In this document: piece by piece, positions 26,930 through 34,466 of the stretch
How the letters are laid out: every line of letters starts with the position of its first letter
Position numbering within the stretch: position 1 is the stretch's first letter
NCBI GenBank assembly: GCA_028284285.1
Contig: JANQSA010000081.1
Location: 62,001 to 126,000, forward strand
DNA: 64,000 nucleotides
Direction: 5' to 3'
Source of the DNA: Croceivirga sp.
Lineage (GTDB): Bacteria; Bacteroidota; Bacteroidia; Flavobacteriales; Flavobacteriaceae
Translations under genes and position numbers: made by a program
The notes under the pieces: generated by a model
What the model saw: the letters and a program-made list of their open reading frames with translations, nothing else
Database searches by the model: none
What the model was told of the DNA's origin: nothing

Positions 26930-28225
26930 ATGAAAAAGTTTTTTATACCCTGTGTTTTAGCTATGTTCCTATTCTCCTGTGAAAAGGAACAAATCGAAAA
27001 TGAAAATTACACTGCTATTCCAACCGAATTTCAGGACGAGGAGATTTCAACAGACCCCTACTTTATCAGTCAATCTATGGCTGAACAAATCGCTTCGGAA
27101 ATTCCGTATAGTTTTTCTGAAGAAAACTCCATGAACTCAAAAGGTTTGACATCAAGCAATAAAAAGGTAAAATCTATTTTGGGAGCACCTGATGACATGG
27201 GCAGTATCTCATTCTATATTGTAAACTATCAAGAAGGTGGTTTTTTAATACTTTCCGCAGATAAGAGAACTAATCCCGTTTTGGCATTTTCTGAATCCGA
27301 TACATTTCCCACAGACCCTGATTATCAGTATCCTACAGGACTTGTTGAATGGTCGATTGGAGCAAAGGATTACATAAAAGGGATACGCGAATCGAATCAA
27401 GAAATGGGTGAAAAACAACAATTGTTGTGGGAACCAAACAATATTGGCATTGCGATAAATCTGAATAAAGTGGTTGGGAAGGGATCTGTTTCAGCCTCCA
27501 AACCGTCATATTGTGATGATCTTCATCCAGATGACCTACCCTATTTTCCAGAGTGCGAGGACTGTCAGGACAGTTTCTATACCAAGGGACCTTTATTGGA
27601 AACCACCTGGGGACAAGGTGTGGGTTATAATGACCAGGCCCCCTATATGGGATGCAGTGGATATACCAACGGACGTGCTCCAACTGGCTGTGTGGCAACA
27701 GCTATAGCGCAAATCATGAACTATCATGAAAAGGCGGGCTCATTCACTTCGACATTTGATTGGGCCGCAATGCCCAATCATACAGGTTCATCCGCCACTT
27801 CTTTTCTAATGGCTGCGATTGGAAGTAATATCCAAATGGATTACAGTTGTGGCGGTTCATCAGCAAGCATGTCCTATGCAACCGGTACCCTAAAAAACCT
27901 TTATGGTTACAACCACGCCTCATTGGTCGGATATGGCAGCGATAAGGTCAAACAGGAGTTAAATCTAAATCGACCCGTAATATTAAGCGGTGGTCGGAAT
28001 GATAAATGGTGGATATTCAACAATTATTCCGACGGACATGCTTGGGTATGTGATGGCTATAGAACTTCTAATATTTGTATGGAAAGTGGAGGCATTTTTA
28101 CGTACCTGTTTTTTTATATGAATTGGGGCTGGGGTGGATCGTATAACGGTTGGTTTGGAAGCGATTGGAGCCCGGGTACAAATTCTTACAATTATCAGAA
28201 AAAGATGATTTATAAGCTGTATTGA
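26930..28225 (+). CDS. C10 family (streptopain-like) cysteine protease lipoprotein
   Basis: 431 residues. The N-terminus is a lipoprotein signal with Cys at FLFSCEKE. Residues ~45-150 resemble the Spi/prodomain of C10 proteases (ISQSMAEQIASEI, SFYIVNYQEGGFLILSADKR). The mature part has GPLLETTWGQGVGYNDQAPY, catalytic Cys254 in PTGCVATAIAQIMNYH and catalytic His370 in DGHAWVCDGY, followed by the WGWGGSYNGWF block. A secreted, surface-anchored protease of the SpeB type that is made as a zymogen. A small lipoprotein gene follows 24 bases later. Confidence 0.92.
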   Translation: MKKFFIPCVLAMFLFSCEKEQIENENYTAIPTEFQDEEISTDPYFISQSMAEQIASEIPYSFSEENSMNSKGLTSSNKKVKSILGAPDDMGSISFYIVNYQEGGFLILSADKRTNPVLAFSESDTFPTDPDYQYPTGLVEWSIGAKDYIKGIRESNQEMGEKQQLLWEPNNIGIAINLNKVVGKGSVSASKPSYCDDLHPDDLPYFPECEDCQDSFYTKGPLLETTWGQGVGYNDQAPYMGCSGYTNGRAPTGCVATAIAQIMNYHEKAGSFTSTFDWAAMPNHTGSSATSFLMAAIGSNIQMDYSCGGSSASMSYATGTLKNLYGYNHASLVGYGSDKVKQELNLNRPVILSGGRNDKWWIFNNYSDGHAWVCDGYRTSNICMESGGIFTYLFFYMNWGWGGSYNGWFGSDWSPGTNSYNYQKKMIYKLY

Positions 28226-30366: not shown

Positions 30367-30827
30367 AATCTGATGTATGGAAAATTAAGCAATAGTCGCC
30401 TTTTTGACCCTCATTTATTATTAATTTTATTTAAATACTTACAAAGCCTGCCCAGGAATATAGTTTACTACTCCGGACCCATATTGTTTTTTTAAAACGC
30501 GAGAAAAAACAATAGACAAAATCGAAACCAAGGTTCCTCCTATAAGGCAAACATCTCTTAAGAAACGTCAACTATTGCATATCCTTTGAAAAGATTTTTA
30601 TAGTTGCTGTAGAATACATTGTTCCTTTATTCATTCGGATCAATCCTTAGGTAAATGAAGTAGTTTAAACTCTTGTTATTTGGATCCATGTATTTGTATC
30701 CCCTCCCAAAGCTTTTCTGATCATCCCTATTTAAACAACTAAGACTGGAGGTACAACATGGAACAACAAAAAGGGATGAATACTGATTGATATCCATCCC
30801 TTGAAAATCCTGTAAATCAGGTGGGTT
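30367..30827. other. Non-coding stretch between PhoX and peptide locus 1
   Basis: AT-rich. Directly after the last peptide gene, reading leftwards on the minus strand, a short match to the receptor segment encoding DLQDFQG occurs (about 30800-30820), the same junction seen in peptide locus 2. A 56-codon minus-strand ORF (30627-30797) lies beyond it but lacks support. Confidence 0.5.
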
Positions 30828-30941
30828 CTAAAGGTACTGTACTGATGCTGTCCAGCGAATCCGCTTGCTGTTCATTGCGTTAATGAGCATGGCGGCCCTT
30901 TTCGATTCCATTGTTGATTGATTGATGATGATTGGTTTCAT
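30828..30941 (-). CDS. 37-aa basic peptide, family S2 (locus 1)
   Basis: Encodes 37 residues beginning MKPIIINQST, with ESKR at 12-15 and NSKRIRW at 24-30. The duplicate at 33995-34108 differs at few residues and shares start, stop and length. The spacing between ESK and SKR..W is identical to that in family S1, so both families share ancestry. An A-rich leader (AATCAATCAAAAA) precedes the ATG; the upstream S1 gene ends 23 bases earlier. No signal peptide. Function unknown. Confidence 0.7.
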   Translation of the reverse strand: MKPIIINQSTMESKRAAMLINAMNSKRIRWTASVQYL

Positions 30942-30964
30942 TTTTTGATTGATTGTGCTGGTAT

Positions 30965-31078
30965 CTAGCGGTTAAAATTCCTGTACTGTGCCCACAGCGA
31001 TCTTTTACTCCCGCAAAGGACCGAGAAGTATTTACCTGTTCTTGATTCCGTGGCTGTTCTATTACTAGTTGCTTTCAT
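30965..31078 (-). CDS. 37-aa basic peptide, family S1 (locus 1, second copy)
   Basis: 37 residues beginning MKATSNRTATES and ending GSKRSLWAQYRNFNR. The C-terminal 15 residues are identical in all three S1 genes although codons differ (for example AGT/AGC, TCG/TCA/TCC, CTG/CTA, CGC/CGT and both TAG and TAA stops), a strong sign of selection on protein. A-rich leader before the ATG. Strongly basic, no signal or membrane segment. Confidence 0.75.
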   Translation of the reverse strand: MKATSNRTATESRTGKYFSVLCGSKRSLWAQYRNFNR

Positions 31079-31138
31079 GATTGTATTTTTATTTTTTTGA
31101 TTGATACTGTGCAAATGTGCTTTGTTTGTCTTTTGTAG

Positions 31139-31154
31139 GGAAAGAATTCTTTCC
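31139..31154. repeat. 16-base perfect palindrome between peptide genes
   Basis: GGAAAGAATTCTTTCC lies in the 128-base gap between the two S1 genes of locus 1. It may be an operator or a small attenuator; nothing equivalent appears in locus 2, which has only one S1 gene. Confidence 0.4.
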
Positions 31155-31206
31155 GAGTTGTTATAAATGCCTCCCCAAATGCTTTTCTTTCTTTACAGAC
31201 CAAATT

Positions 31207-31320
31207 TTAACGATTAAAATTCCTGTACTGTGCCCATAGTGATCTTTTGCTACCACTAAGTGTTGAGAAATACTGTCCTGCTTTTGATTCAGTTGCTGTT
31301 CTGTTGGTTGATGCTTTCAT
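31207..31320 (-). CDS. 37-aa basic peptide, family S1 (locus 1, first copy)
   Basis: 37 residues: MKASTNRTATESKAGQYFST then LSGSKRSLWAQYRNFNR. First gene after the conserved control region at 31321-31545. Nearly identical in protein to the locus-2 copy (34130-34243), with several silent codon changes. The family combines a variable N-terminus, the ATES.. segment and an invariant basic/aromatic C-terminus. No export signal; could be an intracellular regulator, an RNA- or DNA-binding peptide, or a precursor peptide. Confidence 0.75.
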   Translation of the reverse strand: MKASTNRTATESKAGQYFSTLSGSKRSLWAQYRNFNR

Positions 31321-31380
31321 TATACTAATTTTTGATGTTGTTTTAATTTGATTACACCAGATAGACGCCACAAAAATCAT

Positions 31381-31424
31381 TTTGTTACAGTACTATGTAT
31401 AAAAAGGTACTATTTTATGGAAAT
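31381..31424. promoter_or_regulatory. Conserved control block of peptide locus 1
   Basis: This 44-base block is repeated almost exactly at 34304-34347 while flanking intergenic bases diverge. It contains two direct repeats GTACTAT spaced 17 bases start to start. It lies about 60 bases upstream of the first peptide gene (minus strand) and about 370 bases before the divergent LytTR gene. Direct repeats next to a LytTR regulator suggest a LytTR-type binding site, which is inference. Confidence 0.55.
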
Positions 31425-31580
31425 TTTAAGAATCAGGAATAGCCACAACAAAAGAATTATATTATAAAATACTGATATATAGCTAATTACAATTAAATAG
31501 AATACATTTAAAATTTTACAGTCCCTGGAGGGGTTTAGATCATTTTTACTCTTGTTTTTGGAAAACAGTACTTCTTTGTA

Positions 31581-31600
31581 CCAGGAAACCTGGCTTTTTC
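31581..31600 (+). terminator. Short hairpin with T-run upstream of LytTR gene
   Basis: CCAGG AAA CCTGG followed by CTTTTTC. A short stem, possibly ending a leader transcript that runs towards the LytTR gene. Confidence 0.35.
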
Positions 31601-31790
31601 TTTGGAACCCTACAGGTAAGCTATGGACTTGCAGTAGCTCAGGGAATTTTACCTTACGTTATTACCGATCCATTTTTTACTTTTAAATCTCAATCGCCCC
31701 GATGATTTTGTTTACCGTGTTGAACGGCATCCAAATCTGTTATATCTTTCATTTAAGAAAACGAAATTTGCCTTGCATTACTTTTTTTTA

Positions 31791-32654
31791 ATGCTTAACA
31801 AAGCGTATCCGGCACCTACCCCTACCCTAAGAAACATCCTGGTAGCCCTGGCCTTTGGACTTTTCATCTCATTTTTCCTTATTTTTTTCGAACCTTTTGA
31901 TATTGACTTGAGATCAGGCCGAACCAGGACAAGCTCGTTGTTCATTTATGGTTTCATCACCACCCTGGTCCTTTTCTTATTCCTCTATGTATTGCCGCTG
32001 CTAATACCCCGGTGGTTTACGGATAGTCAATGGAAAGTAAAACATCAAATGGTCTTCTGTTTCATTATTCTTTTTGTAATAGCCACACTAAACGGGCTTT
32101 TTACCAATTTCATTAATGAATTGAGCTTTAGTTGGAAAAACTACTGGTGGATAATCAATCGGACTTTTATCCTGGGATGTATCCCATTTGCTTTTCTGAT
32201 ACTCTGGGATTCAGACAAAAAAAATCGTTCATACACCAGGGAGGCCGGAAGAATCATTGCCTTGAAAAAGGCAAAGGGCGTTACCCAAAGTAGTTGTTCC
32301 TATACCATCAAAACCGATTTAAAGAATGAAAGCTTTACGCTAAACGAAAGTCAATTTAGCTATGCGGCTGCACACGGGAACTACATCGATGTTTTCTCTG
32401 AGGAAATCGGTGAACTTGGGTTCAAGACCTACAGGATGAACCTGGCCTCTCTGGAAAAGCAACTTTTTTCTCCTTCGCTGAAACGATGCCACAGATCCTA
32501 TCTGGTCAACTTAACCAAAATTGTAAACATGACGGGGAATGCGCAGGGTATTAAACTCACACTTTCCGGTAATCAAAACGCAATTCCGGTCTCCCGAAAA
32601 TACATACCGGAAATTAAGCATTTTTATGCCGGGTCCTCCAGTCCCGACCCATAG
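31791..32654 (+). CDS. Membrane LytTR family transcriptional regulator
   Basis: 287 residues from ATG 31791; the TTG at 31773 is not preferred. Four hydrophobic segments (about 15-36, 49-72, 87-105 and 126-145) precede a C-terminal LytTR DNA-binding domain (about 185-280), with FSYAAAHGNYIDVF, LEKQLFSPSLKRCHRSYLVN and the final PVSRKYIPEIK. No kinase or receiver domain: sensing would occur through the membrane part. LytTR proteins bind pairs of short direct repeats. Divergent from peptide locus 1, whose control block carries such repeats. Confidence 0.88.
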   Translation: MLNKAYPAPTPTLRNILVALAFGLFISFFLIFFEPFDIDLRSGRTRTSSLFIYGFITTLVLFLFLYVLPLLIPRWFTDSQWKVKHQMVFCFIILFVIATLNGLFTNFINELSFSWKNYWWIINRTFILGCIPFAFLILWDSDKKNRSYTREAGRIIALKKAKGVTQSSCSYTIKTDLKNESFTLNESQFSYAAAHGNYIDVFSEEIGELGFKTYRMNLASLEKQLFSPSLKRCHRSYLVNLTKIVNMTGNAQGIKLTLSGNQNAIPVSRKYIPEIKHFYAGSSSPDP

Positions 32655-32767
32655 TGCCATGGGCACTTCATTGGTCATTTCTTTTCATGGCTTTGCCATT
32701 CACATCATTTCTTTGACACCCATACCATATTTGAATATCCGGTATAAGATTGGGCTAAGTTAGCACC

Positions 32768-33385
32768 ATGAAGAAAAAAGTATTCATTGGCTTTTTAATA
32801 GTGGGTGCCCTGACGATGTGGATCATGTCATTCCATTATTTTCAAAATGACGATTCCGGGATACTACGGAACAAAACGGTAGCATCCCAATTGTGGTACA
32901 TGATTGTTTTTCGCACCCACATAGGTTTTGGGCTTTTGGCCATTTTGGTAGGTCCCTTACAGTTTGTGCATCGTTTCAGGGCTCAATATCCCCGTTTGCA
33001 CAGGAGATGTGGATATTGGTATTTTACCTCCGTGGTCCTTAGCGGCCTTTCGGGATTGCTAATTGCCCAGTTTTCCATGGGAGGTTGGGTGTCCCGACTG
33101 GGGTTTACCGTATTATCAATTTTATGGTTGATAATAACTTCAAAATCCATTCTGGCCATTACGGTTTCTGATATCGTTGAACACCAAAAATGGTCCTATT
33201 TGGGATATTCCCTGACGTTTGCTGCAATAACCCAAAGAACCTTATTATTAATTCCTCTCCTGACCAATGTGTCTTTCGTGCATATATATCAGCTCTCGGC
33301 ATGGCTACCATGGATTCTGAATTTACTGATAGCCCATCACCTTTACCAATCAACACGTTCAAAACAGAAATTAAACCCCAGTTAA
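32768..33385 (+). CDS. DUF2306 membrane protein
   Basis: 205 residues with about six hydrophobic segments. Conserved features of DUF2306 are present: FRTHIGFGLLAILVGPLQF, RLHRRCGYWYF and a later DIVEHQKWSYLGYSL, all with membrane-embedded His/Arg. The function of the family is unknown; His residues suggest heme or metal binding or quinone contact. The TlpA-like gene begins 1 base after the stop, so the two are co-expressed. Confidence 0.85.
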   Translation: MKKKVFIGFLIVGALTMWIMSFHYFQNDDSGILRNKTVASQLWYMIVFRTHIGFGLLAILVGPLQFVHRFRAQYPRLHRRCGYWYFTSVVLSGLSGLLIAQFSMGGWVSRLGFTVLSILWLIITSKSILAITVSDIVEHQKWSYLGYSLTFAAITQRTLLLIPLLTNVSFVHIYQLSAWLPWILNLLIAHHLYQSTRSKQKLNPS

Positions 33386-33386
33386 T

Positions 33387-33881
33387 ATGTCGCTTCTTAA
33401 AATAAAATCAATTCACATCCTTACGCTGATAACACTATCCTCCTGCTTATCGGGACAAAATAGCCAAGAAAGTATTGAATATCAAAACCTAAAGCGTATT
33501 GATGGCACCCGCATTTCAGCAGACACCCTGAAAAACAAGATCCTTGTTGTAAACTTTTGGGCAACCTGGTGCAAGCCTTGTCTAAATGAGATTCCCGACT
33601 TGAACCAGCTTGTCCTGGATAACAAGGACAAGGACAATATACTGTTTCTGGCCATAGCGACCAGTGAACGAGACCATCCTGCCAGGTTATCGGACTTTTT
33701 CAAAAAGGTGCCGTTCTTGTTTGAACATCTTGCGCCGGAATCAGGAGTTGTCTTTTACCCGGAGGTTGAGGAATTACGGTACCCAACTACACTTATCTAC
33801 GATGCATCAGGGACGCTTCAGAAAAAATTTGTAGGTACTTTAACGAAAAAAGAGTTGAAGAAGATCAGGAACTGCTTTTGA
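33387..33881 (+). CDS. TlpA-like thiol-disulfide oxidoreductase
   Basis: 164 residues. N-terminal signal with a Cys in SSCLSG, so probably a lipoprotein. Thioredoxin fold with the active site NFWATWCKPCLNEIP (Cys62 and Cys65) and the cis-Pro strand YPTTLIYD. It would reduce or exchange disulfides in the periplasm. Partner gene DUF2306 immediately upstream. The last bases lie 14 bases before the receptor-gene remnant on the other strand. Confidence 0.9.
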   Translation: MSLLKIKSIHILTLITLSSCLSGQNSQESIEYQNLKRIDGTRISADTLKNKILVVNFWATWCKPCLNEIPDLNQLVLDNKDKDNILFLAIATSERDHPARLSDFFKKVPFLFEHLAPESGVVFYPEVEELRYPTTLIYDASGTLQKKFVGTLTKKELKKIRNCF

Positions 33882-33895
33882 CAGTATCGAAGGCC

Positions 33896-33985
33896 TCACA
33901 TTTTCTTTCCAAACCGATTGAACTTATGCGTAAAACTGAGCATAAAATACTGTTGTAAAACAGTGCCCTGAAAATCCTGTAAATC
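33896..33985 (-). pseudogene. Remnant of outer-membrane receptor gene (last ~29 codons)
   Basis: Read on the minus strand this gives DLQDFQGTVLQQYFMLSFTH then KFNRFGKKM and a stop. The intact receptor gene at 57361-60111 ends with the same sequence except two or three residues, and the DNA match continues for about 10 bases past the stop. Only the 3' end of the old gene remains, directly downstream of peptide gene S2 of locus 2. So a receptor copy was once here and was replaced or deleted. Confidence 0.8.
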
Positions 33986-33994
33986 CGGTAAGCT

Positions 33995-34108
33995 CTAAAG
34001 GCACTGTACTGACCTAGTCCAGCGAATCCGCTTGCTGTTCATTAGGTTAATAAGCATGGCAGCCCTTTTCGATTCTACTGTTGATTGATTGATGATGATT
34101 GGTTTCAT
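33995..34108 (-). CDS. 37-aa basic peptide, family S2 (locus 2)
   Basis: 37 residues beginning MKPIIINQSTVESKRAAMLI and containing NSKRIRWT. Differs from the locus-1 copy at a few positions (for example Met-Glu to Val-Glu, Ala to Leu, Ala to Arg and Tyr to Cys near the end) with silent changes elsewhere. Ends 9 bases before the receptor remnant on the same strand. Function unknown. Confidence 0.7.
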   Translation of the reverse strand: MKPIIINQSTVESKRAAMLINLMNSKRIRWTRSVQCL

Positions 34109-34129
34109 TTTTTGATTGATTGTGCTGGT

Positions 34130-34243
34130 CTAGCGATTAAAATTCCTGTACTGTGCCCACAGGGATCTTTTGCTGCCACTAAGCGTTGAGAAATACTGTC
34201 CTGTTTTTGATTCCGTGGCTGTTCTGTTGATTGATGCTTTCAT
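34130..34243 (-). CDS. 37-aa basic peptide, family S1 (locus 2)
   Basis: 37 residues, MKASINRTATESKTGQYFST then LSGSKRSLWAQYRNFNR. First gene of locus 2; the S2 gene starts 21 bases after its stop. Conservation against the locus-1 copies is mostly at the protein level, with silent third-base changes. Upstream region 34244-34466 is homologous to 31321-31545. Confidence 0.75.
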   Translation of the reverse strand: MKASINRTATESKTGQYFSTLSGSKRSLWAQYRNFNR

Positions 34244-34466
34244 TATCCTGGTTTTTAATGTTGTTTTAATTTGATTACACCAGATAGACGCTGCAAAAAC
34301 TATTTTGTTACAGTACTATGTATAAAAAGGTACTATTTTATGGAAATATTAAGAATTGAAAATCTTCATAACGAAAAAGTAACATTTTAAGTCGCTGATA
34401 TACAATTTTTTATATGCCTGTAAAGTACTTTTAAAATTCTACGGTCTTTAGAGGGGTTTAGATCAC
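34244..34466 (-). repeat. Duplicated upstream region of the peptide loci
   Basis: Matches 31321-31545: both carry a common ATTACACCAGATAGACGC segment, the GTACTAT control block and a shared distal end with GAGGGGTTTAGATCA. Together with the peptide genes the duplicated unit covers roughly 470 bases. It ends before the SLC13 gene on the right. Confidence 0.8.
34304..34347. promoter_or_regulatory. Conserved control block of peptide locus 2
   Basis: Second copy of the 44-base block with two GTACTAT direct repeats (17-base period). Lies ~60 bases upstream of the S1 gene, the same distance as in locus 1. Conservation beyond neighbouring bases suggests it is the promoter or activator site. Confidence 0.55.

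Follow-up and report, generated by a model that had tools for sequence, protein, structure and literature searches.

Two arrays of small basic protein genes

The DNA analysed here is a 64,000-nucleotide (nt) stretch of Croceivirga sp. (assembly GCA_028284285.1, contig JANQSA010000081.1, positions 62,001 to 126,000; hereafter the window), whose minus strand carries five open reading frames (ORFs), each of 37 codons plus a stop, in two arrays. The ORFs belong to two related families, S1 with three copies and S2 with two. In array 1, the order of transcription is a promoter block (31412-31362), a first S1 gene (31320-31207), a 128-nt spacer (31206-31079), a second S1 gene (31078-30965), an S2 gene as the last cistron (30941-30828) and a terminator-like hairpin (30802-30771; z-score −3.45 for 30760-30830). 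Similarly, array 2 runs from its promoter block (34335-34285) through one S1 gene (34243-34130) and a terminal S2 gene (34108-33995) to a weak hairpin (z-score −0.73). Direct repeats connect the two arrays, 300 nt at 83% and 184 nt at 87% identity with the promoter included, and the array repeat continues past S1 on its upstream side for about 190 nt, as far as about 34430. A preliminary description of this locus had placed all five ORFs and both families correctly; the interval it gave, 30828-34243, is right for the ORFs, whereas the promoter-bearing repeat runs partly beyond it. Its scheme of a control block, S1 and S2 at each locus holds as a fixed order, but with two S1 genes in array 1 and one in array 2.

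All three S1 copies in the window end in GSKRSLWAQYRNFNR, and both S2 copies begin with MKPIIINQST. The motifs ESK, SKR and W are equally spaced in S1 (residues 11, 24 and 29) and S2 (residues 12, 25 and 30), and the families align end to end with one extra residue before ESK in S2, which upholds the shared ancestry proposed earlier. Two of the S1 frames open further upstream (TTG at 31114, ATG at 31380); M1 is invariant among 31 aligned S1 relatives, so the 37-codon starts are favoured. In the same alignment, R26 and W29 are invariant and K25 almost so.

In the window's genome, S1 matches occur in three places. Split into six chunks of 19 nt, the single S1 gene of array 2 is in three of them clearly nearer to the first S1 of array 1 (1, 1 and 2 versus 5, 5 and 7 differences) and in the remaining three slightly nearer to the second (1 versus 2 each); in its stop codon and the spacer behind it, the likeness is again to the second. 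Such a mosaic would follow from recombination between units with the loss of one copy, and copy number probably changes through recombination between near-identical units.

Protein-coding evidence and distribution

Among 132 distinct S1 copies (7008 defined pairs), the median between-array ratio of nonsynonymous to synonymous substitution rates (dN/dS) is 0.116. Codon-position entropy is 1.04 at third positions versus 0.35 and 0.36 at the other two, and any of the five alternative frames is interrupted in 117-131 of the 132 copies. The corresponding S2 ratio is 0.318, from 25 copies. Because the S1 set was picked by the C-terminal motif and YFS, and the S2 set by position and NQ, the choice itself contributes to conservation at the selecting residues, but not to the codon-position contrast. 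Within the window, the ratios of nonsynonymous to synonymous differences (pN/pS) are 0.08, 0.14 and 0.16 for S1 pairs and 0.40 for the S2 pair, while S1-S2 pairs give 0.78-0.98 with silent sites saturated. The S1 and S2 ORFs are genes conserved as protein. The selection for protein that had been read from silent changes among the S1 copies is thus visible in the wider set, and of the outcomes named beforehand as contrary to it, absence of the frames elsewhere and a dN/dS near 1, neither was found: the frames are conserved in other genomes and the ratio is far from 1.

S1-type relatives were detected in 67 of 397 Flavobacteriaceae genomes (31-row profile, E ≤ 0.01), and the 77 named loci that were fetched include Maribacter, Pricia, Croceivirga, Ulvibacterium and many uncultured Flavobacteriaceae, so the ORF pattern is not due to chance. 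After L154 was lost for want of a callable start, 97 of the 98 arrays collected remained, of which 90 were distinct. These hold one (17 arrays), two (23), three (28), four (18) or five (4) ORFs, mostly of 36-38 amino acids (aa), with some terminal ORFs of 39-44 aa; a simple pattern recognised a terminal S2-type ORF in 44 of the 73 multi-ORF arrays. A third family, S0 (mostly 38-43 aa, RPKIYF..GFGWNTDR), lies near the promoter, with 67 ORFs in 44 loci. A strict pattern limited to the interval from promoter to first ORF found it there in 16 of 65 arrays, and it is absent from both window arrays. A strong terminator hairpin follows S2 in four of five cases folded, namely array 1 and three other loci. 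The spacer of array 1 contains a weak candidate for an internal promoter, CACATTTG at 31112-31119, picked out by consensus; a YAYATTTG-like element recurs in 9 of 19 inter-S1 spacers of at least 90 nt, the window spacer included, and is perhaps an internal promoter.

The Pfam, NCBIfam and PHROGs libraries given to each peptide returned no family for S1, S2, S0 or the 28-aa and 44-aa peptides described below, and no solved-structure relative was found below E 0.15. Among the papers listed by literature searches, titles and the openings of abstracts yielded no published description of the peptides or their promoter. The earlier suggestion of an undescribed small-protein system therefore corresponds to a real family without a curated model, one that is common in Flavobacteriaceae and apparently undescribed. 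In addition, a divergent 42-aa member occurs in two Croceivirga genomes (L037, 6113-6241; L034, 524-652) without the operator described below, and in L037 it sits 194 nt downstream of a gene for a 1323-aa protein.

A near-invariant promoter block

Upstream of the arrays lies a near-invariant block in which a 22-bp operator of the form GTAC...GTAC abuts the sequence TGTAAC-N16-CGTC. In array 1, operator and TGTAAC occupy 31384-31412 and TGTAAC-N16-CGTCTA occupies 31362-31389; in array 2, the positions are 34307-34335 and 34285-34312, all on the minus strand. Counts of upstream sequence refer to 89 of the 90 distinct arrays, those whose upstream sequence extends over 300 nt or more: the block is present in 65 (72 of 97 before duplicates were removed), and all 65 have CGTC 15-17 nt after TGTAAC. 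For 91 sites, picked because their CGTC lies at the majority distance, the consensus reads TAAaATAgTACcTTtTtATaCATAGTACTGTAACAAA, followed by a variable part and then TCGTCTattaagTgTAA. When CGTC was left out of the search pattern, it was found at 16 nt in 104 and at 17 nt in one of 112 distinct sites; the remaining seven comprise five of a TAnnTTTG class and two reverse-strand readings. With at most three mismatches, the block occurs in 90 of the 397 family genomes, and its reversed-pattern control in none. Across the phylum, a sister pattern was matched in 4 of 395 genomes, all four of them Flavobacteriaceae and the window's genome among them.

An invariant pair at a fixed distance around a variable spacer resembles a sigma-factor site, and we infer that TGTAAC-N16-CGTC is a promoter of the kind read by extracytoplasmic function (ECF) sigma factors. 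The ECF label is our assumption from the general consensus of such promoters; a literature search found no paper for it. The likeness to ECF-sigma-dependent stress promoters lies in the invariant TGTAAC and CGTCT, 16 nt apart around a variable spacer, and the difference in the PadR-type operator that abuts the −35 block of the arrays.

The same promoter also precedes other peptides. In genera without S1, it stands before one or more 28-aa peptides (consensus MRTLNNNQLT.....SK.Y.WN.KRRYR), often with one 44-aa peptide whose end resembles WKGTKRYAH. The layout is that of S1 and S2, with short repeated peptides first and one longer peptide last. A profile of the 28-aa peptide has matches in 140 of the 397 genomes, and by a hand count that includes weak matches (67 + 140, overlap 14), S1-type or 28-aa-type members occur in 193 of 397. 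Comparison of the S1 and 28-aa profiles aligned their C-terminal ends over 20 columns (probability 28, E 6e-4), which is suggestive of homology; our claim is limited to the shared promoter and layout. At several of the 28-aa/44-aa peptide loci among L157-L222, the peptides are followed by a putative ExbD-like gene.

An operator shared with a PadR-PspC operon

In the window's genome, the 22-bp operator occurs three times with at most one mismatch: at both arrays and on another contig (C79:41091), just upstream of a DUF4870-DUF4440-PadR-PspC-DUF2807 operon. It thus marks one of six PadR-family genes of this genome, plus the arrays. Among 33 operator loci, which cover 32 of 59 operator sites and one three-mismatch site, two promoter classes can be distinguished, with TAnnTTTG at 13 PadR operons and TGTAAC/CGTC at 16 sites. 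The rest are two near-misses of the TGTAAC/CGTC class, one TAnnTTTG site whose fetched 3 kb contains no PadR and one unmatched locus, the three-mismatch site. In every one of a further 20 genomes, the closest operator-like match upstream of PadR lies directly before TAnnTTTG; it differs from the array operator by 0-3 mismatches in eleven of them, all with S1-type matches. The PspC protein of the operon has PspC, LiaF-type transmembrane and Toastrack domains, plus a sub-cut-off HAAS match. The PadR considered here is a protein of 108 aa (L196:3127-3453, minus strand).

PadR regulators commonly control their own operon. As far as sequence can show, the array operator is shared with the promoter of the DUF4870-(DUF4440)-PadR-PspC operon, and we infer that the arrays belong to a PadR-linked envelope-stress regulon. 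This sharing holds for the window arrays and not for every array of the family (65 of 89 with the block). The arrays resemble PspC/HAAS-PadR envelope-stress systems in having an operator that also stands at the DUF4870-PadR-PspC operon, and differ in that small-protein operons and PadR locus are unlinked. In the passages considered of a study that associates PspC and PadR-like regulators with membrane stress, neither tandem short basic proteins nor a second, ECF-like promoter class is mentioned (PMC11237479).

Peptide properties

The products are hydrophilic and strongly basic, with a mean isoelectric point of 11.1 and net charge of +6.5 for S1, and 10.5 and +4.6 for S2. An amphipathic membrane peptide was considered and rejected, the helical amphipathic moment of four peptides being no higher than that of shuffled sequences. 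The high isoelectric point and the lack of an amphipathic excess favour RNA or ribosomes over membrane insertion, and we tentatively propose RNA or ribosomes as the target of the products, which are probably cytosolic. Small stress proteins such as RMF, SRA and FbpB are likewise short and strongly basic, and their regulation by stress is also proposed here; the present proteins differ in matching no curated family, in their tandem multi-copy operons and in their putative regulator.

Neighbouring genes

Between the two arrays, the plus strand carries LytTR, DUF2306 and thioredoxin-like genes. The LytTR-domain protein (31773-32654; PF04397, E 1e-13) lies outside the conserved system. It had been considered as a regulator of the arrays, and this role is not borne out: of the 98 arrays, 2 (window array 1 and L090) have a LytTR gene within 1 kb, by single-sequence search and iterated profile alike, and the profile detects one at any distance inside the fetched locus for 17.

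Nearest genes were taken as ORFs of at least 80 aa picked by length, with proteins above 1100 aa excluded; one of 86 downstream genes was left out of family annotation, leaving 85. The commonest nearest upstream Pfam family is the AraC-type helix-turn-helix (HTH; 13 of 86), an adenylate/guanylate cyclase-domain gene being nearest in 9 of 86, and the commonest downstream families are DUF4251 and ankyrin (5 of 85 each). No modification, protease or export family is among the 25 commonest of 101 upstream and 94 downstream families. Array neighbours differ among species of one genus. At L096, L099, L114, L123, L124, L132, L134, L140, L146 and L153, all without the promoter block, a divergent gene for a product of 683-705 aa lies 169-238 nt from the array; that of L099, annotated singly, encodes an AraC-HTH/tetratricopeptide-repeat (TPR) protein.

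Elsewhere in the window, a phage-like or mobile block (1471-21802) holds transglycosylase/baseplate-hub-type and endolysin-type genes and a 1058-aa protein with ArdC N-terminal and metallopeptidase domains; five of its ten scanned proteins have no PHROGs match. Positions 26930-28225 encode a member of the Peptidase C10 family that carries a Spi-type inhibitor domain at its N-terminus.

Proposed regulon and alternatives

The reading we prefer, with a probability of about 0.6, is that the small cationic proteins encoded by the arrays belong to a PadR-linked envelope-stress regulon, with an ECF-type sigma factor, an anionic target and an effect that depends on dose. Each array would be an operon for short, strongly basic proteins. 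Judged from its sites, the PadR of the DUF4870-PspC operon would bind operators at its own operon and at the arrays; the former site overlaps the −33 element region, which would give autorepression, while the array operator, just upstream of the −35, could serve either repression or activation. A putative ECF-type sigma would read TGTAAC/CGTC, and membrane stress sensed by PspC-PadR together with this sigma would switch on several tandem copies at once. The least certain step is the last, in which the products would act as dose-dependent stress effectors by binding to an anionic surface, with RNA or ribosomes as the likeliest candidate and the inner membrane face as the next.

Several observations weigh against this regulon reading. 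At up to seven mismatches, 24 of the 89 distinct arrays have no block within 450 nt, and ten of these lie at apparently one orthologous locus, divergent from the AraC-TPR-type gene noted above, where another regulator may act. An ECF sigma sought in the window's genome through the pattern TGTAACA/CGTCTA was not identified; the pattern has three sites there, including both arrays, which is as many as its reversed control has. The control of the operator pattern matched in 1 of 120 genomes. In the other nine of the 20 further genomes, the PadR-operon site is 4-6 mismatches from the array operator, and shuffled sequence reached five mismatches in 3 of 100 trials and six in 24 of 100; in these nine, the argument therefore rests on the fixed position. 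The PadR of the DUF4870-PspC operon is found, once each, in 113 of 120 genomes and in 100 of 100 near-complete ones, so its co-occurrence with the arrays is not discriminating. On the protein side, the S2 dN/dS comes from just 25 copies and is saturated, and one reverse frame of S1 also has a low dN/dS (0.202, with stops in 117 of 132 copies), as its third positions coincide with those of the S1 frame. The AlphaFold2 model of S1, two short helices, is of low confidence (predicted local distance difference test 65.1, predicted template modelling score 0.28).

Another regulator might bind both the arrays and the PadR-PspC operon, so that the arrays are co-regulated with PspC but not by PadR. The near universality of PadR (113 of 120) beside a patchy array promoter (90 of 397), and the nine of 20 genomes in which the PadR-operon site is clearly unlike the array operator, fit this alternative, as does the fact that PadR binding is argued from sequence. 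We nevertheless regard it as unlikely: PadR autoregulation is common, the DUF4870-operon PadR is single-copy at E ≤ 1e-30, and in the window's genome the operator singles out that one PadR gene and the arrays.

That S1 and S2 are precursors of antimicrobial, signalling or modified peptides is improbable. The products are indeed short, basic and multi-copy, and the C-terminal stretch of S1 is very conserved; however, the 25 commonest neighbour families (86 upstream and 85 downstream genes) include none for modification, proteolysis or export, the amphipathic moment does not exceed that of shuffles, and Pfam, NCBIfam and PHROGs give no match. The secreted, antimicrobial and modified-peptide roles left open in the preliminary description thus receive little support.

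A toxin-antitoxin or selfish mobile cassette could account for neighbours that differ within one genus and for window arrays duplicated around an unrelated operon. It appears very improbable, as no partner gene is common (13 of 86 upstream and 5 of 85 downstream at most) and the products are hydrophilic. A phage or plasmid origin was likewise rejected, none of 19 pattern-matching stretches in viral contigs being confirmed and plasmid and phage records giving no tblastn match to one S1.

A structured RNA or attenuator with incidental ORFs, which a short transcript unit with a terminator, repeated units and sub-threshold DUF2815 RNA matches over both promoters on the other strand might suggest, is scarcely credible against the silent-site excess and the absence of any Rfam match at gathering score in the window arrays. 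The DUF2815 RNA matches, two of three sub-threshold ones in the window, lie on the plus strand at 20-21 bits (gathering 41.2; E 1.9 and 2.6), and seven other loci gave just one match, an unrelated S-adenosylmethionine (SAM) riboswitch in L139.

Implications

Returning to the PadR-linked regulon, its broader form would be an undescribed arm of the envelope-stress response, in which a near-universal flavobacterial PspC-PadR membrane sensor and an ECF-type sigma jointly drive tandem operons for cationic proteins of 28-44 residues in about half of the sampled Flavobacteriaceae. It would comprise at least five protein types (S0, S1, S2, 28-aa and 44-aa) under one almost unchanged promoter with variable copy number, and we consider this joint claim an even bet. 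Annotation of bacterial genomes is poorest for small proteins. In the present case, a regulon of tiny proteins is indicated by the conservation of a promoter more than by similarity between the proteins, and the array promoter can be used to find members that escape searches by protein sequence. Further, the PadR link opens a route to what the flavobacterial PspC-PadR system may control.

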